A DNA stretch of 54,812 nt from a virus. This document shows, in pieces, positions 40,624-54,360 of the stretch. A program made the translations under genes and the position numbers. Position 1 is the stretch's first letter. Every line of letters begins with the position of its first letter. The stretch spans positions 1-54,812 of the IMG/VR virus record IMGVR_UViG_3300042301_002348. One strand, 5' to 3'. Under the pieces are notes generated by a model. It did no database searches, was not told the DNA's origin, and worked only from the letters and a program-made list of their open reading frames with translations.

Positions 40624-41228
40624 ATAGGTATTTTGTGAACACCTTTACTATCCTGAAGGGAGGAGACGAGAGTCTCCGACCGACAATTACACCCTATAAA
40701 ATTACCCCTCAGAACCCCTCCATAGGGGTTTTATTTTACCCCGAATTTTTTCCTGTTTATACCACTAAAAACCCTACTTTTTCCTGTCTGTTTTATCGTG
40801 ATCAATTAATATATCTAAAACTATCTTTTTCTATCCCATATTTGGGTTCTAGTATAATTTATCCACAATTCCCCACTTTCTCCCACTTACTAGGAATGTT
40901 CACTGGGATTGACCCGTGAGCGAATCACAGACCATTTTATTTTTTCTACCAGAATATACCCCTAATATCATTATATTATTACGGTCGGACTCTTCGAGTC
41001 CTCCCTTCAGGATGTCATACAACGTCTTAGTATAACCCTTTATATATTATATTAATCTGTCATACATTAGGTTCCACGTGGAACCCTGAAGGGGGACCGA
41101 AGGTCCCCCGTATAATAGAATATTCGTAATACAGGATGAAGGGGACCGAAGGTCCCCGAGTATACTTATAATACTTTTATACGGTCCTGATGTGATACGT
41201 CTATAATCCCTGAACCGTAATACAAACA

Positions 41229-41305
41229 TTACTGGGGAAACCCACCCATGGGAAATAGTTTGCCAAACAACATTAAGATTACTGGGGAGACCAATATTGT
41301 TTGGC
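41229..41305. repeat. Dyad with TTACTGGGG in its loop
   Basis: A 13-bp stem, GCCAAACAACATT (41262-41274) with AATATTGTTTGGC (41293-41305) with one mismatched pair, encloses a loop holding TTACTGGGG (41279-41287). Another TTACTGGGG lies just outside at 41229-41237. Confidence 0.7.
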
Positions 41306-41361
41306 AGATTATACGGGGACCTTCGGTCCCCTTCAGGAGAATCTCGGAATAATCCTATGGA

Positions 41362-41397
41362 AATTAAAAAAACCCTTAGGGATTTTCCGAAGGGTTC
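41362..41397 (-). terminator. Terminator of the minus-strand array
   Basis: AACCCTT (41371-41377) pairs with AAGGGTT (41390-41396). On the minus strand the stem is followed by TTTTTTT (complement of 41366-41371), ending transcription from the 41469 gene. Confidence 0.75.
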
Positions 41398-41468
41398 TTA
41401 GTATAGTACAATATATGTCTTACAAGGAAAGGATGAAGGGGGACCGAAGGTCCCCCGTAAGTAATACG

Positions 41469-42353
41469 TTATATCCATTTATAAATAAAGTTGAACTTAT
41501 CTAAATTACTTGAAAAACGAACAGGAACTAAATCATTTGATTTAAGTATGTATTTTATTCTTTCTGTTAATAGTGTTTCTAATAGTTCTTTTTTAGGTAC
41601 TGCATAATCTTCAGAAAGTTTTGGGTACTCTATATAGATTGGCATGAAATCGAAGTCTACTTCCCCAGTAATCTTGTTGTGGCTTCTTGCATCACATTTG
41701 AACTTAAGTTTAACATTTTTGGGGAATTTATAATATACCTTGATTTGTTTTAATTCACCATCATCTCCCATACTCGTATTGATTTCATCTGGTATTGTAA
41801 AGGTTCCCTCCTCGACGAAGTCAAGATGAACCTGAAGGTTATGTGGAGTATTCTTTTGGGATTGGAGTTGTCTCAGACCTCTATTAATTCTTTCCAAGGT
41901 GGTGTCGTCGAGTTCCATTACAGATCTGAATCCCACGGGATCTTTAAGAAAAGTCATCAGAGTCTTTACTTTACGAACTTCTTTTGTCCATTGAAGTATC
42001 TCCACGGGTAATACAGTGTCCATTGCACTGTTTAAGTTAAATCCAATGAATTCATTCATTCCCCCAGTAAATAATAGGTCACTGATCCTCACCATGGTTT
42101 CACCCATCTCATTACCATCTTTATCCATGTACTCGTCATACATGGGCTTGAACTTCTCCGCAATCTCGGTCATCAACTTGAATATTATATCTGGTTGGAC
42201 CTGAGTCTCACGTATTACGATGTTCAAGTAAGATCCAAATGTACCAAAAGTTTCAGGTAGTGTATAATAAATCTCACCGTTTATTGAGTTCAGCGGACCC
42301 CTCAGAGATTTTACGAATCTCTCGAAATCTGATTTGTCTAAAATTTTTCCCAT
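41469..42353 (-). CDS. Tagged protein, minus strand
   Basis: 294 aa. The tag KILDKSDFERFVKSLRG resembles the plus-strand tags (SDxERxV), and the octamer TATTTATA is at 42357-42364 on the minus sense strand, 3 nt before the ATG: the same tag-octamer pairing on the other strand. The remaining 270 aa include EDDTTLERINRGLRQL-type helices and a beta-rich half (YYKFPKNVKLKFKCDARSHNK, GEVDFDFMPIYIEYPKLS). No family recognised; probably a virion component. Last gene of the minus array. Confidence 0.7.
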   Translation of the reverse strand: MGKILDKSDFERFVKSLRGPLNSINGEIYYTLPETFGTFGSYLNIVIRETQVQPDIIFKLMTEIAEKFKPMYDEYMDKDGNEMGETMVRISDLLFTGGMNEFIGFNLNSAMDTVLPVEILQWTKEVRKVKTLMTFLKDPVGFRSVMELDDTTLERINRGLRQLQSQKNTPHNLQVHLDFVEEGTFTIPDEINTSMGDDGELKQIKVYYKFPKNVKLKFKCDARSHNKITGEVDFDFMPIYIEYPKLSEDYAVPKKELLETLLTERIKYILKSNDLVPVRFSSNLDKFNFIYKWI

Positions 42354-42366
42354 AGATATAAATATA

Positions 42367-42394
42367 AAAAAAAAGGTTCCATTGTGGTGGAACC
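42367..42394 (-). terminator. Terminator of the 59-aa gene
   Basis: On the minus strand GGTTCC/GGAACC stem (42375-42380 with 42389-42394) followed by TTTTTTTT. Terminates just before the tagged gene's octamer. Confidence 0.8.
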
Positions 42395-42421
42395 TCTTAG
42401 TAATACATGTGTGTAATAAGA

Positions 42422-42601
42422 CTATCGTCCCATTAACTCGTTACGGAACTGTACGGCCTTTCTCTTGCTTGAGAAATTCTTAGAGTACTTAGTACCATTA
42501 ACACTTACACGTACACGGTAAGATGAACCATCATGATAGATGTTGTCGGCAACAGGAACATATGTAGTAACTGTGGTGCGACGGGATGTTGTTTTTTTCA
42601 T
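42422..42601 (-). CDS. Small AP2/arm-type DNA-binding-like protein
   Basis: 59 aa. The segment YHDGSSYRVRVSVNGTKYSKNFSSKRKAVQFRNEL is like the three-stranded sheet plus helix of AP2 or tyrosine-integrase arm-binding domains (GxYRVRV-x-NGKRYSKxFxTxxEA). The N-terminus is basic (MKKTTSRRTTV). No integrase catalytic domain. Probably a small DNA-binding regulator. Confidence 0.6.
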   Translation of the reverse strand: MKKTTSRRTTVTTYVPVADNIYHDGSSYRVRVSVNGTKYSKNFSSKRKAVQFRNELMGR

Positions 42602-42747
42602 TTGTGACTATTTTAAGTTTATATATAAAATATAACAAATAATATCCAAATAAAAAAATCCTGCCAAAAAATATTTTACCCCAGTAAACTTAGACCATCT
42701 TGCTGTTGGTCAGAGGTGAATTCCCCAGTAATGTTCCGAGTCCCTGA

Positions 42748-42888
42748 TCAGGTCCCACTGTTGAGATATCTATCTCCCCACTTCTTGGTCATATAGGCAT
42801 CATACCTATGTACCTTGTTCGGGTTGAACAGGAATATCACGAAGTAGTAATCCCACTTCCACTCTAAATCTTTTAAAAACTTCTTCAT
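42748..42888 (-). CDS. Very small aromatic protein
   Basis: 46 aa (MKKFLKDLEWKWDYYFVIFL...). Hydrophobic and aromatic middle (YYFVIFLFN) and basic end. CCCCAGTAA copies flank it (42679-42687, 42723-42731, 42904-42912). Open frame and minus-array position are the only support. Confidence 0.55.
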   Translation of the reverse strand: MKKFLKDLEWKWDYYFVIFLFNPNKVHRYDAYMTKKWGDRYLNSGT

Positions 42889-42914
42889 ATGATGTTGTTT
42901 ATTCCCCAGTAATG

Positions 42915-43115
42915 TTATCCCATCTTCTCCTTCCTGAGGATGTCGGTCAGAAGATTTTTGTGATTTTGAACGATTACACCGTGCTGTTTCTTAAGAGCTT
43001 CCTCTAAGGACATTCGTTTGTGTGTAATCTTCCAATTGATTCTGTCGGTCGACTCCCATCGTTCCCAATGCTTACCACTAGGTGAGAGCTGAATTCTACT
43101 GTGAATCTTTTTCAT
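42915..43115 (-). CDS. Small basic protein
   Basis: 66 aa from the ATG at 43113-43115 (MKKIHSRIQLSPSGKHWERW). A longer reading would begin before the promoter at 43139-43170, so it is rejected. Basic, with Trp-rich KHWERWESTDRINWKITHKR and a helix SLEEALKKQHG. Nucleic-acid binding is possible. Confidence 0.65.
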   Translation of the reverse strand: MKKIHSRIQLSPSGKHWERWESTDRINWKITHKRMSLEEALKKQHGVIVQNHKNLLTDILRKEKMG

Positions 43116-43138
43116 TTGTTTTTTATTTGATAATTCCG

Positions 43139-43170
43139 CAAAGGTACGGTGTTTAAGGGTTAATACCAAA
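43139..43170 (-). promoter_or_regulatory. Sigma-A promoter fixing the start at 43115
   Basis: On the minus strand TTTG (43167-43170), 20-nt spacer, TACCTTTG (43139-43146). The leader is 23 nt. Confidence 0.8.
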
Positions 43171-43173
43171 CCC

Positions 43174-43740
43174 TTAAACAAATTCTTCAGTTTTAATCAT
43201 ATTGAAATCAATTGACTTCAGTTTGAATACTAAGTAGTCGATTGCTATTCCCACAATCTTTCCATTGTGCTTGGCTACAAGAAGTCGGTAGGAACCATCC
43301 CCATAACCTGAAGACGATACTACCCCAGTATTATATGATCCCCACTGTTGGCTTGACAAGGTTAATCTACACATCTTCTCATACCACTTATCTCCCTCAC
43401 CCTCACACGGTAACATAAAGTCCATCTTAGGTGCTGTTATCTCGTCAGCAATGGAATCATTCCTATAGGACTCCATATCAAATATCCCACACTGACCTGA
43501 GTCAACACCGATATCTGCTGCGGTAACTGTTCTCCAAGACAAATCGTCCTCCACATAATCCTTGTGGACAGCAACAAGTGCTGCACATCTTGTACCCCAA
43601 CCACCGGTCTCATCCGATTTGAATGCTGTGGAGGAGTACTCACCAGGTAATACATCTGTCAACTTATGCTGACACCAGGTAGGGACAGTGTAACAAGGGT
43701 CCGATACCATAACTTCCGAGCCTAAATAAATTTTTTCCAT
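43174..43740 (-). CDS. DUF4241-like conserved protein
   Basis: 188 aa. VMVSDPCYTVPTWCQHKLTDVLPGEY (VSDPCY-x4-W), then CAALVAVHKDY and GVDSGQCGIFDMESYR, and a terminal SYNTGVVSSSGYGDGSYRLLVA match a family (DUF4241) widely found in phages and bacteria, function unknown. Starts 1 nt after the previous stop. Confidence 0.75.
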   Translation of the reverse strand: MEKIYLGSEVMVSDPCYTVPTWCQHKLTDVLPGEYSSTAFKSDETGGWGTRCAALVAVHKDYVEDDLSWRTVTAADIGVDSGQCGIFDMESYRNDSIADEITAPKMDFMLPCEGEGDKWYEKMCRLTLSSQQWGSYNTGVVSSSGYGDGSYRLLVAKHNGKIVGIAIDYLVFKLKSIDFNMIKTEEFV

Positions 43741-43741
43741 T

Positions 43742-44065
43742 TTAAATTACATTTATTGTGAATGATTCTGTTTCGATTTGTCTGTGTAAATAAACTAAGT
43801 GTTCCATTGTAAGGTCGTTATAACCTAAGTCGTGGTAACCATCTCCTGTAATACCTTTGGTGATTAACTGACCTGTGCTTCCACATATCCCTATAACAAC
43901 TACTTTAACTTGGTAGTCGTCGTCGAAGTTTTGGGTAAACCACACTGAGAATGGATTGATTAATTCTAATTCAAATTCGTCCCCTCCGTTAAGTTTAACG
44001 GTTCTGTGGACAATATCTCGGTGAATGGAATCACGGAGCTTTAGTAACTCTTGAGAGTAATTCAT
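43742..44065 (-). CDS. Hypothetical protein
   Basis: 107 aa. Helical N-terminus (SQELLKLRDSIHRDIVHR) followed by a beta domain (FELELINPFSVWFTQNFDDDYQVKVVVIG). Unknown. A promoter with -7 TAATTTCG at 44090-44097 lies 24 nt before the start. Confidence 0.7.
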   Translation of the reverse strand: MNYSQELLKLRDSIHRDIVHRTVKLNGGDEFELELINPFSVWFTQNFDDDYQVKVVVIGICGSTGQLITKGITGDGYHDLGYNDLTMEHLVYLHRQIETESFTINVI

Positions 44066-44089
44066 ATGATTAATAGTTTAAGTGTAATA

Positions 44090-44121
44090 CGAAATTAAGT
44101 ATTCTTTTCGAATATTCCAAA
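44090..44121 (-). promoter_or_regulatory. Sigma-A promoter with one mismatch
   Basis: Minus strand TTTG (44118-44121), 20 nt, TAATTTCG (44090-44097). Confidence 0.65.
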
Positions 44122-44604
44122 TTATGCTAGAATATTTTTTAGAACTTTAATATTCTCGTCAATCTCAAGGTCCATCACTTTAAGTAACTTCTCCTTGGCT
44201 AACTCCATAAACTCTACACTGTTACCCAGTAAATCTATGTCCGTCCCGTGCACATCCGTCTTCCCGACGATAACCCTGATGTCCTTAGTACCTTTACCCT
44301 CTCTATAGAATAGAGCTCGAGCATAGATGTACTCACGAACCAAAGACAGTTTGATTTCATCTGCCACAGATTCCTTAGAACGGAGTTGCATAATGATTTC
44401 TTCTAACTTGGCTAACATCTCGAAGTTGGTCTTCATCATACGGATGCTGTTCTTATACTGATTACAGTACTTCACCAGCTCATCAGTGTGAGGAATACTT
44501 AAGTCGATGTCCACATTAAGGAAACGATCGTATGAACTAATTCTATCTCGGGTACCCACTATCTCAGTGAATACTCCTCCCGTTAAACGATTTTCTCTAC
44601 CCAT
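44122..44604 (-). CDS. Hypothetical helical protein
   Basis: 160 aa. Long helical middle (NSIRMMKTNFEMLAKLEEIIMQLRSKESVADEIKLSLVREYI). Overlaps the next upstream gene by 22 nt. Unknown. Confidence 0.7.
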   Translation of the reverse strand: MGRENRLTGGVFTEIVGTRDRISSYDRFLNVDIDLSIPHTDELVKYCNQYKNSIRMMKTNFEMLAKLEEIIMQLRSKESVADEIKLSLVREYIYARALFYREGKGTKDIRVIVGKTDVHGTDIDLLGNSVEFMELAKEKLLKVMDLEIDENIKVLKNILA

Positions 44605-44804
44605 TTTATTTTTGTTTTTAATTTGTTTAAAATCCCAGTAAACTTGTCCCCATCCTGGCTCACCTCAGGTGCGAACTCATATCTCGTGTTCATTGTACCC
44701 CCCAAATAACCAGTAAAGTATTTGGTTGGTTCAACATATTGACTCGATACTCTATATCTTTCCACCCACTCATTAAATGATAATGGGGTTTGGAATGTGC
44801 TCAT
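44583..44804 (-). CDS. Hypothetical small protein
   Basis: 73 aa from the ATG at 44802-44804 (MSTFQTPLSFNEW); this is 2 nt past the stop of the Api92-like gene (TAAGATG). Contains YFTGYLGGTMNTRYEF; TTACTGGT/G is part of the coding sequence. Overlap with 44122 gene is 22 nt. Confidence 0.65.
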   Translation of the reverse strand: MSTFQTPLSFNEWVERYRVSSQYVEPTKYFTGYLGGTMNTRYEFAPEVSQDGDKFTGILNKLKTKIKWVEKIV

Positions 44805-44805
44805 C

Positions 44806-45441
44806 TTACATTTCAGTTTCTTTTCCATATATCTCTTTTAATTCGTTAAAAATTTCTTCTAATTTTTTAAGGTCTTCGTCCCCAGTAATAAAATGGAACA
44901 TTTCCTTCACCGACTCGAAGGTTACATCTTCATCACTCTCGAACAAATAGTCAATGTCCCCGTCGATAGATTCAAAGAAGTTCTCCTTGTCGAAAAGATA
45001 TCTACCCTCATTGTATGAATAATCTTCTTCGGTTAATCCATTCTCATTGTCAAAATAAGATTTACCACAGAAGTCACAACCTGGTTCTTCATAATATAAC
45101 TCACACTTCACATTGAATAACCTACCCAAGTGTTGAATGAAGTTTATTGGTGGTGACCAAGCTGAATCGAACGACATTGTTATTGATTCGTCATCATAAG
45201 TGATATTAGCTTCGTTGTATGACACATCCCACTTACAACCCCAGTAATTAATGTTGGCATCGTACCATCCTCCGTGTTCGTATTCATTTAACTCAATAGA
45301 TTTGTCACGACCAACAAGAGCCATAAAAATACCAGGGGATGTGTTATCCTTACTCTCGATATCTTCGAGATAAAATTTAATTCTGTCCAAGTTTTCGTTA
45401 TCACCTGTAATAGTAAGGTGATTGTTGCACCAATTTGGCAT
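44806..45441 (-). CDS. Api92-like (ferredoxin-fold, DUF1281-type) protein
   Basis: 211 aa starting MPNWCNNHLTITG at 45439-45441, the classical start of the Api92/YubB family, found in phages and plasmids with unknown function. A non-ATG start 24 nt upstream lies against the promoter -7 box and is rejected. Central SFDSAWSPPINFIQHL and a later CDFCG motif are family features. C-terminus is acidic (ESDEDVTFESVKEM). Confidence 0.85.
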   Translation of the reverse strand: MPNWCNNHLTITGDNENLDRIKFYLEDIESKDNTSPGIFMALVGRDKSIELNEYEHGGWYDANINYWGCKWDVSYNEANITYDDESITMSFDSAWSPPINFIQHLGRLFNVKCELYYEEPGCDFCGKSYFDNENGLTEEDYSYNEGRYLFDKENFFESIDGDIDYLFESDEDVTFESVKEMFHFITGDEDLKKLEEIFNELKEIYGKETEM

Positions 45442-45462
45442 AGTTGTATGATTTATGTTTAA

Positions 45463-45494
45463 CAAAGATATAACAGGGATATCATTATTCCAAA
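45463..45494 (-). promoter_or_regulatory. Sigma-A promoter fixing the Api92-like start
   Basis: Minus strand TTTG (45491-45494), 20 nt, TATCTTTG (45463-45470). Confidence 0.85.
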
Positions 45495-45515
45495 TAATAT
45501 CCCCGTTATTTTATT

Positions 45516-45998
45516 TTACCAAGAAGCTCTGTATTCAAAGTCACCAGAGTACAATCCGTGTTCTTTGGATTGTTCGTGTTCTTCTAACAACTCCTCAATG
45601 ATTTTGATAGTTGAGTTTACATCTTCTTTGTAATACTCATCAATTTCATCACCACCGAAAAAGAAACCCTGTACTGGTGGAAGAAGTTCTTTAGCCTTAT
45701 CAAAGTTGGAACTAACTTCTTTTAGTGTTTCAAATAACTCTTTCAGCTTGTCCTCATCAACATTGATGTTTTGACATTCATCAATACCACCACCACAATT
45801 CTCAACGAACCATCCGTGAAGTGCATTGAACTTTCTCCAATACGCCACCTGTTCGGTGATGTAACAAATACGATTTGGTTTAATGTCGTTACGAACTACA
45901 CCATTCTTTTTAACTTCGATTTGGTGTTGTTGTTCAGGTGGGTTGTGTTCCCAATTTTGTACATAAGTTCTTTTGTACAGATACATGTCTAGTCCCAT
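45516..45998 (-). CDS. Conserved phage protein MGLDMYL family
   Basis: 160 aa. MGLDMYLYKRTY...VAYWRKFNALHGWFVENCGGGIDECQ is a signature I know from phages and bacteria, function unknown (some database annotations are unreliable). Conserved Trp-Arg-Lys-x-N-x-Ihxx-F pattern and GGG. A promoter is at 46030-46061. Confidence 0.8.
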   Translation of the reverse strand: MGLDMYLYKRTYVQNWEHNPPEQQHQIEVKKNGVVRNDIKPNRICYITEQVAYWRKFNALHGWFVENCGGGIDECQNINVDEDKLKELFETLKEVSSNFDKAKELLPPVQGFFFGGDEIDEYYKEDVNSTIKIIEELLEEHEQSKEHGLYSGDFEYRASW

Positions 45999-46029
45999 GA
46001 TTTTTTAGTTTAAGTGTTAATTAATAATG

Positions 46030-46061
46030 TAAAGGTATTACAATAATTTTATTATACCAAA
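46030..46061 (-). promoter_or_regulatory. Sigma-A-type promoter
   Basis: Minus strand TTTG (46058-46061), 20 nt, TACCTTTA (46030-46037). Confidence 0.65.
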
Positions 46062-46385
46062 TTATTTTATGAAAAGTTTACTATCGATTGTAAATAATTC
46101 TTTGTACTCACTTCCGTCAGCATTCTGTCCGTTTAAATTCCAGAATGGCAACACTCTTGGATTGTATTTTAAATGTGCGGTAGTTTCAGGAATAAAATCT
46201 TCGGTAAGAATTTCTATTTCTTTACAAAGAACATAAGCACAAACGACTTTGGTGGTTTCCCCAGTAAATATTTTCTGCGCTGCTGTCCTGTTGTTTTTCA
46301 GAACGCAATCAGTTAGTATTAACTGAACTTCAGCTGGGTGATAATATTTCACCCAGCCGTTGTTATATTCAATTTTCCATTTCAT
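46062..46385 (-). CDS. Hypothetical protein
   Basis: 107 aa from the ATG at 46383-46385 (MKWKIEYNNGWVKYYHPAEV). The longer reading lies inside the previous gene and is rejected. Beta-rich with KKKIFTGETTKV; function unknown. Downstream of the MGTRST gene by 34 nt. Confidence 0.7.
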   Translation of the reverse strand: MKWKIEYNNGWVKYYHPAEVQLILTDCVLKNNRTAAQKIFTGETTKVVCAYVLCKEIEILTEDFIPETTAHLKYNPRVLPFWNLNGQNADGSEYKELFTIDSKLFIK

Positions 46386-46419
46386 ATAGTTCTCTCCCTT
46401 TCCGAGATTGAACCTAACT

Positions 46420-46872
46420 TTATGCTTTTTCAACTTCTTCCTTTTTATATTTTTTAACAAATTGGGATGGAGTACCACGAAACAATTCAGTTTTATTTCC
46501 GTCGTTCTCATAACAAACAAACTCAATGGAGTAATCTTCTTTAACGATAACATCATAAAGATAATCTTCCCAAGAATTTCCACGACTTGACAAAGATTGT
46601 ACATAGGTGTTTCCTGTTTCGCCACCTTTTAATTTCCAAATGAGTTGAGCAGCTAAGCAACCAGCGCCGTTGAATACTAATTTCTTTTCATTAGCACCAT
46701 ACCCATTAACGACTTTTCCTGTTGATAACCATTCAGCGGTTTCAAGTGGATGACCTGTTGGGTATCCGTCGTACTGACGATAGATTAAACAGATTTCATT
46801 CTGTTTTACTTTTTTTACTTTTTTACCTGTTGAGTATTCCTCAATGATGCGGTAAGTTGAACGAGTTCCCAT
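46420..46872 (-). CDS. Conserved MGTRSTYR-type phage protein
   Basis: 150 aa from the ATG at 46870-46872 (MGTRSTYRIIEEYS); a longer reading would pass through the promoter. EICLIYRQYDGYPTGHPLETAEWL and NGAGCLAAQLIWKLKG are the family blocks. Found in phages and bacteria, function unknown. Confidence 0.85.
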   Translation of the reverse strand: MGTRSTYRIIEEYSTGKKVKKVKQNEICLIYRQYDGYPTGHPLETAEWLSTGKVVNGYGANEKKLVFNGAGCLAAQLIWKLKGGETGNTYVQSLSSRGNSWEDYLYDVIVKEDYSIEFVCYENDGNKTELFRGTPSQFVKKYKKEEVEKA

Positions 46873-46905
46873 AATAAATTTTTTTTTGTGATTAATATTA
46901 TGATA

Positions 46906-46936
46906 CAAAGATAATACTTTTTTATTACCTGCCAAA
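46906..46936 (-). promoter_or_regulatory. Sigma-A promoter
   Basis: Minus strand TTTG (46933-46936), 19 nt, TATCTTTG (46906-46913). Confidence 0.8.
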
Positions 46937-46979
46937 TTTATTTTCAACTTTTTTAAAAAAATATTTGCCGGCGTCATGC

Positions 46980-47105
46980 ATAATCCTAAACATTACTGGG
47001 GTGTAATACGGATCTGATCGGCGCACGATCTGCAAAACTGGCTAAACATTACTGGGATGTACCCCAGTAAACTTTCGCCTCAGGCCTGTGCAGATACAGT
47101 GCACA
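46980..47105. repeat. TTACTGGG island A
   Basis: TTACTGGGG (46993-47001) followed by TGTAATACG, then the inverted pair TTACTGGG (47049-47056) with CCCCAGTAA (47062-47070), 5-nt spacer. GC-richer than the genes (GATCGGCGCACGATC). Lies between a terminator and the next promoter. Confidence 0.85.
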
Positions 47106-47106
47106 G

Positions 47107-47136
47107 CAAAAAAAATCCCCACCTTTCGGTGAGGAC
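47107..47136 (-). terminator. Terminator of the gp88-like gene
   Basis: On the minus strand the CCTCACC-GAAA-GGTGGGG stem precedes TTTTTTTT (complement of 47107-47115). Confidence 0.8.
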
Positions 47137-47142
47137 ATTAAA

Positions 47143-47901
47143 TTAAAGTTGTATGACAAACTTATTCTTTGTTAACTTATTTCGAACTCGTTTATATTTT
47201 AGTCCGACAATTACATTCTTTTTATCTTTATACCTCATATCGTATAAATCCCCATCGATTACTTTCCTATCCCAAAATGTTTTAGGTACTTTATTAAAAA
47301 CAACCGCCACCCTTACATTCTTATTTAACATTGAGTGACACTCATTTAAATTGTGACCGCTATAAGAGAAAGTTAAATCGTAGTTCTTATATTTTTTAAG
47401 TAGTTCGATTCTTTTAGGAACCTTCGTATAATCGTAGAATTGAATATGTTGAAAGTATTGTAAAATATTAACGGGTTTATCATTTACATGAAGATAAAAC
47501 GATTCGGGTGTTATATCTGATGTGTTATTCAAACGAACTGAAAATTTATAACCTAACTTCTTAGCCTTCAATTCAGTTGCTTTAATTTCATCGAATAACC
47601 AACTGACAAAAAATTCTCTGTGTTCAAAAAACAATTTAGTTTTTGCAATTCGTGAACGATTAATTTTATCGTCCTCCATGTTCATCGTGTTCATCCCTGA
47701 TTCATTCAAACATAACTTTGTACATTCTTTTGTTCTCATAGGGCAAACCTCGTAACCGCTCATTTTTGCAGGAGCTAAGTACAAACTATATGTTAATTCA
47801 TCGTACTTGAATGCCTTCTGATGTTTGGTTGTCATATTAACGGAGCCTAAATAAGATATCCCTGTTAATCTTTTTGCTTGAGCTTTAGTAGTGTAAATCA
47901 T
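47143..47901 (-). CDS. Gp88-like phage protein
   Basis: 252 aa from the ATG at 47899-47901. YEVCPMRTKECTKLCLNESGMNT with the Cys trio, RSRIAKTKLFFEHREFFVSWLFDEI, and FSVRLNNTSDITPE are hallmarks of the phage gene-product-88 family. The cysteine arrangement could bind a metal or Fe-S cluster. Function unknown; common in mycobacterial and other phages. Its promoter region shares a 30-bp identical block with that of the 51836 gene. Confidence 0.8.
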   Translation of the reverse strand: MIYTTKAQAKRLTGISYLGSVNMTTKHQKAFKYDELTYSLYLAPAKMSGYEVCPMRTKECTKLCLNESGMNTMNMEDDKINRSRIAKTKLFFEHREFFVSWLFDEIKATELKAKKLGYKFSVRLNNTSDITPESFYLHVNDKPVNILQYFQHIQFYDYTKVPKRIELLKKYKNYDLTFSYSGHNLNECHSMLNKNVRVAVVFNKVPKTFWDRKVIDGDLYDMRYKDKKNVIVGLKYKRVRNKLTKNKFVIQL

Positions 47902-47922
47902 TTGTTTATTTTTTAGTGTACA

Positions 47923-47954
47923 CAAATATACAACTAATACTTTTATATTCCAAA
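47923..47954 (-). promoter_or_regulatory. Sigma-A promoter of the gp88-like gene
   Basis: Minus strand TTTG (47951-47954), 20 nt, TATATTTG (47923-47930), followed by a GTGTACAC palindrome. Confidence 0.85.
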
Positions 47955-47974
47955 TTTATTTTTAAATATTTTTT

Positions 47975-48122
47975 TGAGTCAGCGCATGCGCGCAGCACTG
48001 GCCTAACTTTACTGGGGTAATACGACACAGATTTTGCATGCAGATTACAGGTGAATAATTACTGGGATGTACCCCAGTAAACTTGTGCGCTGGTCCGAGC
48101 TGCGTTTGCGCTGAGGGTAATA
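47975..48122. repeat. TTACTGGG island B
   Basis: TTACTGGGGTAATACG (48009-48024), then TTACTGGG (48059-48066) and CCCCAGTAA (48072-48080) with the same 5-nt spacer as island A, then GTAATACG at about 48117. An open frame across it (47962-48177) is a by-product. Confidence 0.85.
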
Positions 48123-48123
48123 C

Positions 48124-48156
48124 GCAAAAAAAAGGGTGAACATTTCTGTCCACCCA
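48124..48156 (-). terminator. Terminator after the 104-aa gene
   Basis: Minus strand stem GGGTG...CACCC followed by TTTTTTTT (complement of 48124-48131). Confidence 0.6.
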
Positions 48157-48176
48157 ATCGTTCACACTAATAAACA

Positions 48177-48491
48177 CTAATCACTAATTCGTTTTTCTGT
48201 TCTAATACACTCAGCTTCCCACTGCTCACATAGAAGTAATACATCTTCCAACACATTCTCATTCAACTCCCAATAACTTTCTTCGTAGGTGTCGATAGCG
48301 TCAGAACTACTTGAACGAGGTTCGTACACATTTACTTCGATATAATCTTCTGTGAAATATTCACCCAACCCAACATAGTTACCTAGTGTACCAACGAGAA
48401 TACTATTCTCACCTTCTAATTCTCCAATACTAAAACATCCGTTGACTTTTAGTATGTCTGTAATACGATTAATGATTTCTGAATTTTCCAT
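48177..48491 (-). CDS. Hypothetical acidic protein
   Basis: 104 aa. Helix start (SEIINRITDILKVNGCFSIGEL), then a beta hairpin and a C-terminal LLLCEQWEAECIRTEKR. Unknown. Two nt after the upstream gene's stop. Confidence 0.7.
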   Translation of the reverse strand: MENSEIINRITDILKVNGCFSIGELEGENSILVGTLGNYVGLGEYFTEDYIEVNVYEPRSSSSDAIDTYEESYWELNENVLEDVLLLCEQWEAECIRTEKRISD

Positions 48492-48493
48492 TT

Positions 48494-48766
48494 TTAAATT
48501 GATTTAGTATTATCCCAAATTATATTACCTTCCTCGTCATACAACTCCTCCGTAGGTTCTCCACCATTTTCGTCAGGCATTATACGCTCAAGAGTTTCGT
48601 CAATATGTTCCCACGGCAGTTCAGTGGTTCCCATTTCTAAATGAAATCCAATTGCTAATTGTTTAGCCTCCTCCATTGAGTTAGCCTCGATTTCAAATTC
48701 GGTACGATACCAGGTCGTAACCTTTGTGTCCAAATGAAAGTTAAATGTTGTTAGGGTCTGTTCCAT
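48494..48766 (-). CDS. Hypothetical acidic protein
   Basis: 90 aa. TTFNFHLDTKVTTWYRTEFEIEANSMEEAKQLAIGF has the strand-strand-helix arrangement of small DpnD/PcfM-like sensors (EIEANSxEEA), but this is a weak call. Acidic tail PDENGGEPTEELYDEEG. Starts inside the 3' end of the small membrane gene by 26 nt. Confidence 0.65.
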   Translation of the reverse strand: MEQTLTTFNFHLDTKVTTWYRTEFEIEANSMEEAKQLAIGFHLEMGTTELPWEHIDETLERIMPDENGGEPTEELYDEEGNIIWDNTKSI

Positions 48767-48866
48767 TTTCTATTGATTTTTTAATTGATATAATAAGTAA
48801 TACAACCATTACCGAAAACAATACAATAACTCCGAATCCTAAAAGTAGACAATATAAGACATTCAT
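48741..48866 (-). CDS. Tiny membrane protein
   Basis: 41 aa (MNVLYCLLLGFGVIVLFSVM...), one strong transmembrane helix and a short tail SIKKSIENGTDPNNI. First gene of a short operon; the overlap with the next start by 26 nt supports coupled translation. Confidence 0.65.
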   Translation of the reverse strand: MNVLYCLLLGFGVIVLFSVMVVLLIISIKKSIENGTDPNNI

Positions 48867-48877
48867 AGTTTTAATTT

Positions 48878-49075
48878 TTAAAGTTCACGAATATACATAT
48901 AATCTTCTAATTCTTCCAAAGGAATTCTTCCGTTATTAGAACTATAATATCCTTGTCTTCGATATCGTTCTTTCCACTTGTCAAATGCCTCAAATGCTTT
49001 TTCCTTTGATGTGTAATAAGGTCTATCGAATTCAATCGTAAACCCGTCGGGGGATAATACTTCGTACTTTGTCAT
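48878..49075 (-). CDS. Conserved small phage protein
   Basis: 65 aa. YEVLSPDGFTIEFDRPYYTSKEKAFEAFDKWKERYRRQGYYSSNNGRI is a conserved phage pattern (VLSPDGF.. YxSxxEA...YxxQGYYSSxxGRI). Unknown function. ATGA overlap with the DUF1737-like gene. Confidence 0.8.
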   Translation of the reverse strand: MTKYEVLSPDGFTIEFDRPYYTSKEKAFEAFDKWKERYRRQGYYSSNNGRIPLEELEDYMYIREL

Positions 49076-49422
49076 AGTCCTGCATTTTTAATGATACAAT
49101 CTAATTTATATTCAAATTCTTCCCTCATACCTTCAATGTCATATACCTTTCTATTTTCATCCACTTCATTATCTTCATTAATGTAAGGATGATAAAAAGC
49201 AACATCCACTTCAATTACATTCGGTTTAAATTCCTTAACCATACTAATTGAATATTCGTGTTTAATTAAGGTATCTTGGTGTTGTGAACCACTATACCTA
49301 TTTTGTCTATGTTGTTCCACAACTTGGTGTGAACCCATAGGTTTCCAACCATTTTTAATTAGGTTGTTAATTTTCTCCGTCAATCCTTCGGGGGATGAAC
49401 TTGTTAATACTTTGTACTCCAT
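49072..49422 (-). CDS. DUF1737-containing protein
   Basis: 116 aa from the ATG at 49420-49422. MEYKVLTSSSPEGLTEKINNLIKNGWKPMGSH matches DUF1737 (WKPxG). A C-terminal acidic portion (EDNEVDENRKVYDIEGM) is extra. Function unknown. Leader fixed by the promoter at 49445. Confidence 0.8.
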   Translation of the reverse strand: MEYKVLTSSSPEGLTEKINNLIKNGWKPMGSHQVVEQHRQNRYSGSQHQDTLIKHEYSISMVKEFKPNVIEVDVAFYHPYINEDNEVDENRKVYDIEGMREEFEYKLDCIIKNAGL

Positions 49423-49444
49423 AATATTTTTGTTTAGTGTAAGA

Positions 49445-49476
49445 CAAAGATAAAACAATAATATTATTTTACCAAA
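49445..49476 (-). promoter_or_regulatory. Sigma-A promoter
   Basis: Minus strand TTTG (49473-49476), 20 nt, TATCTTTG (49445-49452). Confidence 0.85.
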
Positions 49477-49494
49477 TTTATTTTGAAGAATTTT

Positions 49495-49690
49495 TTTTCA
49501 GCCCGATCATCCTAAACATTACTGGGTTGAATTGTTAGCCAGCGCAAATTTCCTGATCAGCGCGCGCAAATCTGGCTAATGTTTACTGGGGTGTCCCAGT
49601 AATAATCACTTGCGCACAATGCCTGGTCCATGAGTTATTTGTAATACCCCAGTAAACTTCATGATCAGCGCACAGTGTGACGGGTTCTTC
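49495..49690. repeat. TTACTGGG island C
   Basis: TTACTGGG (49519-49526); TTACTGGGG (49583-49591) with CCCAGTAA (49595-49602), 3-nt spacer; GTAATACCCCAGTAA (49641-49655). Two TGATCAGCGC sites (about 49552 and 49662) and GC-rich CGCGCGC. 330-bp gap without a gene. Confidence 0.85.
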
Positions 49691-49695
49691 TAAAC

Positions 49696-49729
49696 AAAAA
49701 ACCCCCGAACCAAAAGTCCGAGGGTTTCA
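49696..49729 (-). terminator. Terminator of the 50060/49754 unit
   Basis: Minus strand: ACCCTCGGAC stem with GTTCGGGGG (some G-T) followed by TTTTTT. Confidence 0.8.
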
Positions 49730-49753
49730 CCAATCTAATCTTTAACCTTTGTC

Positions 49754-50032
49754 TTATCTTAGTCTTTCATCAACAACTAAGTTATAATATCCGTTTAAGA
49801 AATTAATTATTTCTGTAATACTTTCTTTTGACACTTTATGTTCTAATAACAATGATTCGATAAATCGTTTATTATCCGTCAAACCTAAACAATAAATAAA
49901 ACCATTATCATCGTTTTTAGTATTAAAAAAAGTAAAATCAATTTCAATCGGTTTTAATTTAATTCTTACTTTCTGATAATTCTCAGAATCAATTTTCAAA
50001 GTTTTAGTTTTAATAACTTTACTTGTGTCCAT
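49754..50032 (-). CDS. Hypothetical protein
   Basis: 92 aa. Lys/Ile-rich; beta strands KVRIKLKPIEIDFTFF then an amphipathic helix KESITEIINFLNGYYNLV. Second in an operon after the DUF932 gene. Unknown. Confidence 0.7.
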   Translation of the reverse strand: MDTSKVIKTKTLKIDSENYQKVRIKLKPIEIDFTFFNTKNDDNGFIYCLGLTDNKRFIESLLLEHKVSKESITEIINFLNGYYNLVVDERLR

Positions 50033-50059
50033 ACTTTTATTTTTTTAATTATTAATGTC

Positions 50060-50920
50060 TTACACTAAATGTACAAGTTCCTTAAAGATTTGTCTCTCAC
50101 GATTTCCGTAAGTTCCGAACATCTTATTTTCAGAATTGTCACCTTTACCCATACTATGAGTTGTGTATTTTGTTACACCACTAAATAAACCCCAAATGTT
50201 ATCACCCTTTTCGTTAATCTCACCATTAAGGTCGACATAGAATCTACTTAATTTGTTTCGTGTTACGATATGTAACGAATCAACATCCTTAATATCAACA
50301 TTCTTTTCGATATTGAATAATGATTTGATTACTCTATCCTTGATAATATCATCGAAACGAGTTTCACTCATTTTAACGATAGAACCGAACACATTCTTTT
50401 CTTCTTGTACTACACCCTCAATTTGTCGACAGATATCTTCTATCTTTAATTCCATATTCTTTGTATGACGTACCTTTGAATCTAAATCTTTGTACACACC
50501 GAAGAATGTGTTTTGACAACTGATAGTTTTCGAACTAGGACCGAACGATAATGAAGTCGAACCATCGAAAGAATTAATCCCAGTAACATAACCCTCGATT
50601 CTATCCGTCCCCAAAGTTAAGTCATTAGATTTTAACTGAACGAATACTTTTCGTCCACCACCGAACAAACCACCCCTATGAACATCAAGTCCAGTTTGTT
50701 GGGACACTTTGAACAATAGTTCCATCATTTGGTCATTCTGATATGGTACATAACCATTAGAGTGAATACCCAAGATTGTACTATCATCCTCACGAACGAT
50801 ACCAATTTTATCAGGGATAATAATTCCTGACGAAGTTTGAAGTCCTTCGGTACGGACTTTCCAATTTAAACCAGTTCTATCCAAGAACTGATTAACCCGA
50901 TTGTTTTCTACGATTTCCAT
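50060..50920 (-). CDS. DUF932 phage/plasmid-like protein
   Basis: 286 aa. IVREDDSTILGIHSNGYVPYQNDQMMELL, FGGGRKVFVQLK, GTDRIEGYVTGINSFDGSTSLSFGPSSKTISCQNTF are diagnostic of DUF932 (TIGR03299-like). The family is common on phages, plasmids and ICEs with no established role. VTGINS codes through a TTACTGGG-like site (50578-50585). Leader 37 nt from the promoter. Confidence 0.9.
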   Translation of the reverse strand: MEIVENNRVNQFLDRTGLNWKVRTEGLQTSSGIIIPDKIGIVREDDSTILGIHSNGYVPYQNDQMMELLFKVSQQTGLDVHRGGLFGGGRKVFVQLKSNDLTLGTDRIEGYVTGINSFDGSTSLSFGPSSKTISCQNTFFGVYKDLDSKVRHTKNMELKIEDICRQIEGVVQEEKNVFGSIVKMSETRFDDIIKDRVIKSLFNIEKNVDIKDVDSLHIVTRNKLSRFYVDLNGEINEKGDNIWGLFSGVTKYTTHSMGKGDNSENKMFGTYGNRERQIFKELVHLV

Positions 50921-50957
50921 CTGTTTAATTTTTATGGTTTAATAAATGATTGTATGA

Positions 50958-50989
50958 CAAAGATAAATCAATTTGGCATATAATCCAAA
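50958..50989 (-). promoter_or_regulatory. Sigma-A promoter of the DUF932 gene
   Basis: Minus strand TTTG (50986-50989), 20 nt, TATCTTTG (50958-50965). Confidence 0.85.
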
Positions 50990-51014
50990 TTTATTTTTAA
51001 GAAATATTAATTAA

Positions 51015-51115
51015 TTTTTTCTCCTGATCCACCTGTGATCAGAGCTCCCAATATTACTGGGTAATACTTGATGATACCCCAGTAATTTTATGGGATGATC
51101 AGGGACGAGAAATCT
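51015..51115. repeat. TTACTGGG island D
   Basis: TTACTGGGTAATAC (51054-51067) and CCCCAGTAA (51077-51085), with 15 nt between the half-sites; TGATC and TGATCAG sites flank it. A 51.02-51.13 kb island. Confidence 0.8.
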
Positions 51116-51123
51116 GTGGACAT

Positions 51124-51155
51124 AAAAAAACCCCCGACAGAATCGGAGGTCTTTA
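51124..51155 (-). terminator. Terminator of the 51171 gene
   Basis: Minus strand CCTCCGATTCTGTCGGGGG stem followed by TTTTTTT. Confidence 0.8.
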
Positions 51156-51170
51156 ATATAATAAGGGATT

Positions 51171-51494
51171 TTACTCCCCTAATAAATTTAGTACAAGGTG
51201 TTCGGAAGTTTCCTCCTCCCACACATCATCATTCCAATCCTCACCGACTTGTGTACAAGTCTTGTAGTCAAGGTAGACAATACCCATTTTAATTGTGACA
51301 ATTCCTTCGGTTCTTTCGTTGATGGGAACCAACTCTTTTTCCACAAGGAATAAAAGTACGGTTTCGTAGACAAAAAATTGGTCGGTATTTTCCGACTCAA
51401 CATATTCAACTTGACCTTGGAAGTCAAGGGAGAATTCGAATTCCATGTCAGAACTCAAAATCTTTTTAATCTCGGATAAGTATGTAGTATCCAT
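51171..51494 (-). CDS. Hypothetical acidic protein
   Basis: 107 aa. Beta-rich (EFEFSLDFQGQVEYVES, IVTIKMGIVYLDYKT), C-terminal very acidic (GEDWNDDVWEEETSEH). Unknown. Promoter TATATTTG at 51526-51533 upstream. The gene is a transcription unit on its own. Confidence 0.7.
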   Translation of the reverse strand: MDTTYLSEIKKILSSDMEFEFSLDFQGQVEYVESENTDQFFVYETVLLFLVEKELVPINERTEGIVTIKMGIVYLDYKTCTQVGEDWNDDVWEEETSEHLVLNLLGE

Positions 51495-51525
51495 AGTGTG
51501 TAGGTCTATTGGTTAGTAGACAATA

Positions 51526-51556
51526 CAAATATAAAAAAGAAATTCCGTTTTACAAT
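51526..51556 (-). promoter_or_regulatory. Sigma-A promoter, weaker -33
   Basis: Minus strand TATATTTG (51526-51533); the -33 element is ATTG (51553-51556), 19 nt away. Confidence 0.6.
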
Positions 51557-51589
51557 ACATTTATGAAAAATTATTTTACTTTTTTTCTG

Positions 51590-51770
51590 ACCCTGGTAAT
51601 CCAAATATATTACTGGGTAATACAAGAATTCCAGTTCGGGGACCTACTGGAAATTAATACTGGGTAAACTCCCCAGTAAAGTAATACGTCCGAACCGTCG
51701 CGTCGGAAATTCTAACACACACTATAAACTCCCCAGTAAAGTAATACACCTAACCGGTCGAGGACCTGAG
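51590..51770. repeat. TTACTGGG island E with tandem element
   Basis: TTACTGGGTAATAC (51610-51623); TACTGGG (51658-51664); two copies of CCCCAGTAAAGTAATAC (51671-51687 and 51731-51747), 60 nt apart, each followed by a CG-rich half (CGTCG, CGGTCG). 300-bp gap without a gene. Confidence 0.85.
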
Positions 51771-51777
51771 GTATGAA

Positions 51778-51810
51778 CAAAAAAAAAAGGATAGTCTTTC
51801 GACTACCCTT
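51778..51810 (-). terminator. Terminator of the 51836 gene
   Basis: Minus strand stem GGGTAGTC-GAAA-GACTATCC followed by ten T. Strong terminator. Confidence 0.85.
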
Positions 51811-51835
51811 CTTCACCTTTCCAACCTATGTATTT

Positions 51836-52396
51836 CTACACAACTACTCCTTCTAAATGTCGTAATACGGACTTACCTTCATCCCAACAATCGTCCTCAC
51901 TATAATAACTTCCACAACATTCAACTAATGTTTTGTGTTCGTGACCTTTATTACAAGTTTCAATTTCATAAACTTTGTATTGATAAACTTCACCCGTTAA
52001 GTATTCATCATAAATTCTAACTTCACTATTCATAATCAAACTTAACTTTTCTTCACCCCTTTCAAAATCTTTACCACACATTAAGTTCAATTGTTTTTCA
52101 CTAATGAAAATCCAACCAACTTGTCCACTATCCCATTGACAACTGAACGGACTTGTGGATATAGTTATACCACTATGGTCGTACATATACAAAGGTTTAA
52201 TCAAAAGGACTTTATGGTCACTTTCAATTTGTGACTTCAATTCATCCCAACTATCAAAGTCAACACTTTTGTAGTCAGTTTTGTCACCAATATCGTACCT
52301 TTTGTGAAAACAAATCATTGTAGTAATGTTATCCCACTCGGTACGAGGATTCATTGGGTCGTTATCGTGTTCGACAACTAATTCATACTTTCTCAT
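51836..52396 (-). CDS. Conserved phage protein, unknown function
   Basis: 186 aa from the ATG at 52394-52396. LIKPLYMYDHSGITISTSPFSCQWDSGQVGWIFIS is a recurrent phage signature (YxHSGxTIxTxPFSCxWDSGQVGxI). Start fixed by the promoter. A Cys-rich end (ETCNKGHEHKTLVECCGSYYSED) is also part of the family. Unknown function. Confidence 0.85.
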   Translation of the reverse strand: MRKYELVVEHDNDPMNPRTEWDNITTMICFHKRYDIGDKTDYKSVDFDSWDELKSQIESDHKVLLIKPLYMYDHSGITISTSPFSCQWDSGQVGWIFISEKQLNLMCGKDFERGEEKLSLIMNSEVRIYDEYLTGEVYQYKVYEIETCNKGHEHKTLVECCGSYYSEDDCWDEGKSVLRHLEGVVV

Positions 52397-52417
52397 TTTA
52401 ATGTTTTTTAGTGTACA

Positions 52418-52447
52418 CAAATATACAACTAATTCGGTTATATCAAA
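52418..52447 (-). promoter_or_regulatory. Sigma-A promoter with GTGTACAC
   Basis: Minus strand TTTG-like (52444-52447), 18 nt, TATATTTG (52418-52425), with the GTGTACAC palindrome next to it (52411-52418). A 30-bp block (52404-52433) is identical to 47909-47938. Confidence 0.75.
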
Positions 52448-52489
52448 AATAAATTTGTTAAAATATTGTCAAAGAATTTTGGATACCCG

Positions 52490-52622
52490 TGAAGGTAAAA
52501 TAATTTACTGGGATGTATGACAAGGATACCCCAGTAATTTTTCGACTCTGTCTTCCTGATGATGAGGTTCTTTTTGTATTACCCAGTAATAAAAACAGAT
52601 GGACGGAGATGGAGAAATTTTT
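52490..52622. repeat. TTACTGGG island F
   Basis: TTACTGGG (52505-52512) and CCCCAGTAA (52529-52537), then GTATTACCCAGTAA (52576-52589). 16-nt spacer between the first two half-sites. Confidence 0.8.
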
Positions 52623-52624
52623 GA

Positions 52625-52656
52625 ACAAAAAAAATCCACCCCTTTCGGAGTGGACT
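52625..52656 (-). terminator. Terminator of the 52680 gene
   Basis: Minus strand stem GTCCACTCC-GAAA-GGGGTGGAT followed by TTTTTTTT. Confidence 0.8.
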
Positions 52657-52679
52657 TCGGTTAGTAGGGGAACTAACCT

Positions 52680-53210
52680 TTAAATGAACTCGTAAATGTT
52701 TCCGTTGTATGACACTTCTTTAACATTATCCAAACTTACCGATAAGGTTTGTACCTTTCTTTCACTCGGTTGATTTTTGTAATTGTTTGACTTCACTAAC
52801 CAACTATCAAACAAAGTTTGGTCAATAGGGTTTCCCTCAAACTCAAATTCAACTTTTGGTTTCACTTCCATAAACCACTCGTATTGAAGATAATACTTTT
52901 TTGTATTTTCGTTGTAAAGGATAACATTGTTGATATGGTTACCAACTTTATTTTCACTTACTTGAAAATTACCTTCACCACCACCCTTAATTTCGTTACC
53001 CTTTACTCGTTGTTCGTACTCACCACCGATTAAAACTCTAACCGATTTTTTCTTCACAACTTTTCCATAATACTTGTTCAAACCTTCCCTACCCCCTTTG
53101 TTCATTTTTGGGATAGTGTGTGTAACTAAATTCATAAATGTAGGATTTTTAACCTCGTTCATCATTTTGATAAACTCACCTTGTTGGATTTTGAAACGAT
53201 TTTTTTTCAT
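52680..53210 (-). CDS. Hypothetical basic protein
   Basis: 176 aa. Lys/Asn/Gly-rich (MNKGGREGLNKYYGKVVKKKSVRVLIGGEYEQRVKGNEIKGG); C-terminal half with VKPKVEFEFEGNPIDQTLFDSWLVK and KVQTLSVSLDNVKEVSYNG. Conserved in phages by pattern but no family name. A clear -7 box is lacking upstream. Confidence 0.7.
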   Translation of the reverse strand: MKKNRFKIQQGEFIKMMNEVKNPTFMNLVTHTIPKMNKGGREGLNKYYGKVVKKKSVRVLIGGEYEQRVKGNEIKGGGEGNFQVSENKVGNHINNVILYNENTKKYYLQYEWFMEVKPKVEFEFEGNPIDQTLFDSWLVKSNNYKNQPSERKVQTLSVSLDNVKEVSYNGNIYEFI

Positions 53211-53280
53211 AACATTATTTTGTTTATTTTTTCAATACTCTAAATTACAACTTTTATCCAATATAACAAAATATATTTAA

Positions 53281-53640
53281 TATTTTTTTATCCACATTCT
53301 TAATTTTTTTTTGTGGACAAATTGTGGATAACTTTTTCCCCCTGATCCAGAAATAAATTACTGGGGACTCTCTGAGAAAAAATCTGTCCCGTTCAGGAAA
53401 ACAATACTGGGGAAAACGAAAAAACATGTATCGATGTGTTGATGCAGGAAAACAATACTGGGGACGTAAAGAAAAAAAATCTGTAAATCTACCTGTTCGA
53501 TATTACTGGGGTGTAATACGTTTTACCCCAGGAAACTTTTCCTGGATGATCAGATTCAAGGTTCATTGTTGTGTAATACCCCAGTATAGTTTTCCTGGAG
53601 ACTCGGTTCCACCCACACTTCTTAAAAACAAAAAACCCCA
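53281..53640. other. TTACTGGG island G with DnaA boxes (origin candidate)
   Basis: 470-bp gap. AT-rich start with TTATCCACA (53288-53296), TGTGGACAA (53312-53320, one mismatch on the reverse strand) and TGTGGATAA (53323-53331). Then TTACTGGGG (53358-53366); a 20-bp direct repeat CAGGAAAACAATACTGGGGA at 53394-53413 and 53445-53464; TTACTGGGGTGTAATACG (53503-53520); GTAATACCCCAGTA (53573-53586). A terminator-like hairpin for the 53682 gene follows. Confidence 0.7.
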
Positions 53641-53664
53641 CAACTAAAAGTCGTAGGGTTTCAA
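53626..53664 (-). terminator. Terminator of the DUF4314 unit
   Basis: Minus strand AAACCCTACGACTTTTAGTTGTGGGGTTTTTTG gives a stem (ACCCTACGAC with GTTGTGGGGT) followed by TTTTTT. Confidence 0.65.
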
Positions 53665-53681
53665 AAATAATCGTGTCGAGT

Positions 53682-53894
53682 CTAATATACTATTTCAAAC
53701 TTATCTTCATCGGGAATTACGGATAGTTTTCTTCCGTTATCCCAATTCACACCATAATAACCCATATCATCAACGAATACAATCGTACCCATTGTGTTAG
53801 GTTGAATAGGGTTTGTCTTTGGGTCATCATCCATTAGAATCAATCTAATTCTTTTACCAACTAATTCTTTTCTAATTTTTAATAGTTCAAACAT
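53682..53894 (-). CDS. DUF4314 family protein
   Basis: 70 aa. LVGKRIRLILMDDDPKTNPIQPNTMGTIVFVDDMGYYGVNWDNGRKLSVIPDEDKF is the whole DUF4314 domain (GxRIxLxxMxDD...P.GxxGTVxxVDDxGxxxVxWDNGxxLxxIPxxDxF). A conserved, short phage/bacterial protein of unknown role. 11 nt after the previous gene. Confidence 0.9.
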   Translation of the reverse strand: MFELLKIRKELVGKRIRLILMDDDPKTNPIQPNTMGTIVFVDDMGYYGVNWDNGRKLSVIPDEDKFEIVY

Positions 53895-53905
53895 TGTTAT
53901 AGGTT

Positions 53906-54106
53906 TTATTCGTGAGAAAATAACATTTCCAATAAACCTAAAACGATAGGATGTACCTCATTATTGTTTGAGTCCCCCCATTGTTTGACTTCCCCATTTT
54001 CTTGGATGTGAAAGTTTGTCTTTGTACCATCGGTCAGTTTGAACCAACCCTTAACTTCATTGTGTCCAATGAAATTGAATTTTTGTGTTGTGATTTGTGT
54101 AGTCAT
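53906..54106 (-). CDS. Hypothetical small protein
   Basis: 66 aa from the ATG at 54104-54106 (MTTQITTQKFNFIGH). Beta-rich GWFKLTDGTKTNFHIQENGEVKQW. A promoter -7 box TATATTTG is at 54128-54135. First gene of an operon with DUF4314. Confidence 0.65.
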   Translation of the reverse strand: MTTQITTQKFNFIGHNEVKGWFKLTDGTKTNFHIQENGEVKQWGDSNNNEVHPIVLGLLEMLFSHE

Positions 54107-54127
54107 TTTGTTTAAATGTTTAGTACC

Positions 54128-54135
54128 CAAATATA
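54128..54135 (-). promoter_or_regulatory. Sigma-A -7 box
   Basis: Minus strand TATATTTG (54128-54135). No TTTG at the expected distance. Confidence 0.5.
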
Positions 54136-54184
54136 CAAATATTATTTTTATATAAAAAGTTTTTTTGTTAAAATTTTGTGAAAG

Positions 54185-54360
54185 AATTTTCCCGTGTTGT
54201 TACATTGCTTTTATTACTGGGGTAATACGAAGATGTGGTTTTTTATAAGCAGACGACACGACATTACTGGGAAATGTCATACGTTCATCCCAGTAAAATT
54301 GTCCCATCTGCATTGTTGTAACGGCAGTTGCGTTTGAGCTGATTCGGTAATACACCTAAA
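54185..54360. repeat. TTACTGGG island H
   Basis: TTACTGGGGTAATACG (54214-54229); TTACTGGG (54264-54271) with CCCAGTAA (54289-54296), 17 nt between; GTAATAC near 54347. The gap 54107-54428 contains no gene. Confidence 0.85.

Follow-up and report, generated by a model that had tools for sequence, protein, structure and literature searches.

The window (the whole 54,812-nt stretch analysed here, a 54.8-kb virus record that is only a fragment of a larger genome) contains a cluster of three DnaA-box-like sites that looks more like a DnaA-responsive gene switch than like the phage's own replication origin. On the sequence comparisons set out below, our leading reading, which we regard as possible but short of probable, is that the cluster is a lineage-specific site for host DnaA, located between an operator-like island and the promoter of the adjoining 176-aa gene (the downstream gene), and that it regulates this gene (Table 1).

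Table 1 Positions of the features discussed in the text
Feature	Position	Strand	Details
Orphan DnaA domain IV protein	27925-28302	+	125 aa, no AAA+ domain
Lone exact TTATCCACA	9133-9141	+	isolated; covered by chance expectation
Lone exact TTATCCACA	40859-40867	+	isolated; covered by chance expectation
Gene downstream of the cluster	52680-53210	-	176 aa
AT-rich stretch beside the boxes	53225-53284	.	among the least stable 0.4% of the window; some 16 other places equal or worse
Imperfect Bacteroidota-type promoter of gene 52680-53210	53240-53270	-	TTTG (53270-53267), 19 bp, TAATTTAG (53247-53240)
DnaA box 3	53288-53296	+	TTATCCACA, exact; opposite orientation to boxes 1 and 2
DnaA box 2	53312-53320	-	TTGTCCACA, one mismatch; oriented as box 1, 2-bp gap
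DnaA box 1	53323-53331	-	TTATCCACA, exact
Double DnaA box (boxes 1 and 2)	53312-53331	-
TTACTGGG operator-like island	53358-53587	.	TTACTGGG at 53358+ and 53503+; TACTGGG at 53405+, 53456+ and 53580-
Exact 20-bp direct repeat CAGGAAAACAATACTGGGGA, copy 1	53394-53413	+	includes island motif
Exact 20-bp direct repeat CAGGAAAACAATACTGGGGA, copy 2	53445-53464	+
Intrinsic-terminator-like hairpin and T-run of upstream gene 53682-53894 (-)	53630-53663	-	repeat family D14

A preliminary description of this DNA had placed three DnaA-box-like sites, two exact and one with a single mismatch, within 44 bp, and their positions are confirmed here. No such cluster arose in 300 order-2 Markov windows trained on the whole window (0/300) or in 300 simulations trained on local intergenic DNA (0/300), and even two exact boxes within 44 bp were found in 0 of the 300 order-2 Markov windows. 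Box matches with at most one mismatch number 26 across the whole window against 25.95 expected; the box-density search that had been suggested as a check thus returned no excess, and the clustering alone is unusual. Around 1.3 exact TTATCCACA sites are expected by chance per window, and the exact box listed earlier at 40859 is indeed present, together with a second, at 9133, that had been missed. A box cluster beyond chance is a feature of oriC-type sites, and a double box with a gap of 2-3 bp is a feature of DnaA-regulated promoters (PMC11317965); the cluster shows both. In E. coli, chromatin immunoprecipitation sequencing found pairs of boxes with a 2- or 3-bp gap to be the main binding sites of DnaA, at nearly every target, and the double boxes bound in vivo sit mostly upstream of regulated genes (PMC11317965). 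The pair TTATCCACA-2 bp-TTGTCCACA occurs in at least 119 IMG/VR stretches, compared with 3 for a reversed control pattern (about 40-fold or more), which marks it as a unit found repeatedly in viral DNA. The DnaA-box arrays of those other viral contigs differ from the present one in being mostly richer in G+C, and their two-base spacer is usually another one, often GG or GC. The non-random clustering, the 2-bp double-box spacing and the recurrence in viral contigs lend good support to the earlier assignment of these sites to the DnaA recognition type; our leading reading further takes the cluster to be a true DnaA-binding site of high affinity.

Two close relatives, contigs G005 (176 kb) and G003 (131 kb), place the window in a larger genome. 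G005 matches the window up to 51.66 kb and extends 120 kb leftward, and G003 extends 56 kb rightward; together, these two separate overlaps suggest that the full phage genome measures some 230 kb or more. The presence of tail-fibre and SbcC-like proteins identifies a large tailed phage, and promoters of the form TTTG-N19/20-TAnnTTTG point to a Bacteroidota host. The annotated phage records that we searched held no near relative. Larger relatives are G047 (310 kb, terminally redundant), G042 (287 kb) and G037 (264 kb, its ends overlapping by about 120 bp). The cluster is present in every contig seen to span its position and is the sole such cluster in G003; G005 stops short of that position, as should two further relatives of 44.7 kb and 100.8 kb, judged by the distance from the DnaA-domain gene. 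Among the genes of the phage group is one for a sigma-70 type factor that has both region 2 and region 4 (L159:9431-10246, in G005).

The sites, their spacing and position, the operator and promoter layout around them and their phylogenetic distribution are direct observations. From 41.5 kb onward the genes lie on the minus strand, and many units of this block follow one order: gene, Bacteroidota-type promoter, TTACTGGG island and then the terminator of the upstream gene. For most genes with a clear TTTG-N17-21-TAnnTTTG promoter, the distance from the start of TTACTGGG to the -33 element downstream of it is about 36-67 bp (mode 54-58); for the downstream gene the distance is 88 bp, and the boxes occupy the extra space between island and promoter. 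The double box itself lies 42-61 bp upstream of the -33 element. This position agrees with the promoter layout of the block, although the promoter in question is degenerate, whereas other genes of the block have good matches (the Bacteroidota -7 consensus being TAnnTTTG; PMC9723704), and its -33 TTTG is missing from two of four aligned relatives. A degenerate promoter is as expected if an activator is needed. The arrangement resembles E. coli DnaA-regulated promoters with double boxes (PMC11317965) in having same-orientation boxes 2 bp apart upstream of a promoter; unlike those, the phage site is predicted from sequence, has an inverted third box and lies between a repeated operator island and the promoter.

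In the mechanism that we propose, for which we infer host DnaA as the binder, an effect on transcription and the direction of that effect, the double box and the inverted third box would have been acquired in this phage lineage and set between the TTACTGGG island and the promoter. Host DnaA, most likely, would bind the double box as a dimer and modulate the promoter, so that expression of the downstream gene would depend on the DnaA level or on the replication state of the host. If host DnaA does control one gene of a large phage, then the phage reads the replication state of its host directly. It is very unlikely that the cluster is instead a decoy that titrates host DnaA and holds back host replication, the alternative named in the preliminary description. 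A high-affinity double box would serve that end and the phage copy number would multiply the site, but there is only one three-box cluster and no genome-wide excess of boxes, which makes titration a weak account, and it leaves the exact fit between island and promoter unexplained.

Our preference for promoter control by host DnaA stems mainly from G037. This phage has exact double DnaA boxes at 49643-49662 and 65892-65911 and encodes no DnaA domain, so host DnaA is their natural binder there. The second of these double boxes lies 61 bp upstream of a TTGACA-17-TATATT (sigma70-type) promoter of a 167-aa gene.

The downstream gene has homologues in other jumbo phages, with 37-44% identity, and its 176-aa product had no match in Pfam, PHROGs, the PDB or phage records; its predicted structure was of too low confidence to be informative (mean pLDDT of 38). 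Upstream of the homologues in G042, which encodes two of them, and G047, the DNA has no DnaA boxes, so control by the boxes does not always accompany this gene. Between the five phage contigs aligned at the site, the boxes do not differ at all (no change in 46 bp), whereas the adjoining TTACTGGG island has diverged (67.5% identity with G003). We nevertheless rejected this conservation as evidence of a function, as the near-identity between lineages extends over all of segment 52680-53332: relative to G003, identity is about 99% for the segment, with 99.2% in the gene, 94.7% in the AT-rich part and 100% in the boxes, compared with 67-74% in the flanking islands and 92-96% in the neighbouring genes, and the lineages that share this segment differ by about 13% elsewhere. 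Such near-identity along the whole segment indicates that boxes, promoter and gene were probably exchanged recently as a cassette, and the conservation of the boxes is therefore not independent proof of a function. The recent exchange is also what a functionless passenger would show, such as a piece of an origin picked up from a host or plasmid and hitch-hiking with the segment; we consider this very unlikely, as it is at odds with the complete lack of changes over 46 bp in five contigs and with the separate double boxes of G037, one of them similarly laid out.

The preliminary description took the cluster for a phage replication start, and the sites themselves would also suit an origin. Under that reading DnaA (from the host, or from the host together with the phage domain) would open the AT-rich DNA at 53.22-53.29 kb and load the host helicase. 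We consider this unlikely, although several observations favour it. The cluster is the only one of its kind in the 131-kb relative, the adjoining DNA is very AT-rich, and 14 bacterial contigs share the three-box arrangement, with dnaA beside it in at least four. Moreover, DNA polymerases of families A, B and C and the DnaB helicase gave no Pfam match in the contigs searched, which are fragments, leaving room for use of the host replisome; their absence is not proof of host dependence, since the window's own lineage is represented by incomplete contigs only. Against an origin, the GC skew that had been proposed as a check has no replication-type change at the site. Among genes on one strand, the skew at third codon positions hardly differs between the two sides, with no switch in strand asymmetry, so the skew of the whole window reflects gene direction, and we rejected skew as a means of locating an origin because it follows gene strand only. 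The AT-rich stretch, a candidate DNA-unwinding element, ranks among the least stable 0.4% of the window, but some 16 other places are at least as unstable. The longest DnaA-trio run beside the boxes, three triplets, was at chance level, being reached by 63% of shuffles. The neighbouring genes had no match to any replication family. The cluster is also not conserved at the corresponding place in relatives: the near-complete G042 and G047 lack it and have no double box with fewer than three mismatches anywhere in their genomes, and G037 has its double boxes elsewhere. With no skew change, no adjacent replication gene and no cluster in these relatives, the replication-start claim is not supported. 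The site shares with bacterial oriC the tandem and inverted TTATCCACA boxes beside AT-rich DNA, in a three-box pattern that lies beside dnaA in some bacteria, but it differs from oriC in its few boxes, its lack of a skew switch and of a dnaA/dnaN neighbourhood, and its lack of conservation in related phages. We judge it rather improbable that this phage, of at least 230 kb, initiates replication at an oriC-like DnaA site within an operator island, with replication and gene control coupled through host DnaA.

We also considered the phage's own DnaA domain as the binder. The orphan DnaA DNA-binding domain reported earlier at 27925 is borne out by a match to Pfam Bac_DnaA_C (PF08299) of 56 bits, against a cut-off of 31.5. 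It keeps the equivalents of E. coli R399, R407, D433 and H434, which are conserved in its family, and the equivalents of P423 and Q408 are replaced. In E. coli DnaA, R399, R407, D433 and H434 contact the box (domain IV structure 1J1V). That this domain binds the cluster, for replication or for gene regulation and possibly in competition with host DnaA, is distinctly improbable. The retained contact residues and the presence of both domain and boxes in the window lineage are consistent with it, but the P423 and Q408 replacements count against it, and the two elements come apart among relatives. The window lineage, G041-G044 and G032 all encode the domain, but neither G041-G044 nor G032 has an exact double box; among these phages, exact double boxes are confined to the window lineage and G037, and the latter has no domain. 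In more distant relatives of the domain, no box pairs were found at 23 loci, and a single isolated exact box turned up across 23 records. Domain and boxes are therefore not a fixed pair, and we rejected their co-occurrence as a sign of joint function, since they are uncoupled in both directions; the earlier proposal tying the boxes to the phage's own domain is not supported. The presence of both an orphan DnaA domain and DnaA boxes in a phage does not by itself imply an origin of the DnaA type, because the two vary independently among relatives.

The TTACTGGG motifs beside the boxes, which the preliminary description had noted, are real (36 copies in the window against 1.4 expected), but they are not confined to this island: all copies lie at 41.2-54.3 kb (41229-54296) and they recur through the 41-54.8 kb block. 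The 20-bp direct repeat reported with them is likewise exact. TACTGGG sites are unchanged in G003 at 37 of 38 aligned positions, against a background of 0.55-0.56, and the octamer is therefore a selected DNA element; we take it to be the operator of a phage regulator. A role as an origin iteron was rejected, as the motif sits upstream of most promoters of the block and in coding regions in three frames, and so was a role as half of a sigma-factor promoter, as no second motif recurred clearly at a constant spacing. Copies of TACTGGG within coding sequences (41664, 42063, 43324, 44225, 44634, 44881, 45240, 46260, 48073 and 50579) are spread over three reading frames, most of them on the coding strand, and 12 of 12 coding copies are conserved in G003. 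A literature search for the octamer TTACTGGG returned no match.

In a homologous gene block, the octamer upstream of promoters differs by lineage, being TTACTGGG in the window lineage, TGTTTGGC in G047 and TCTGTGGC in G042. The island regions lie at 41229-54296 in the window, 60-79 kb in G003, 140-170 kb in G042 and 230-270 kb in G047. The octamer of each lineage is found at most 140 bp upstream in 11-14 promoters, compared with about 3-6 expected. The pattern suggests a stoperator-type system of regulation, with a DNA specificity that changes from lineage to lineage. It shares with the stoperators of cluster A mycobacteriophages (PMC6550527, PMC9283540) a short, asymmetric, many-copy and lineage-specific site; unlike those, TTACTGGG is kept to one block, in promoter-upstream islands and in both orientations, in large Bacteroidota-type phages. 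The end of the G005 contig coincides with a TTACTGGG island at 51.61-51.74 kb of the window, which suggests that the repeated islands break metagenome assemblies. In the convergent region of the window (41087-41459), several copies of a GGGGACCGAAGGTCCCC hairpin occur in both orientations and are probably bidirectional terminators.
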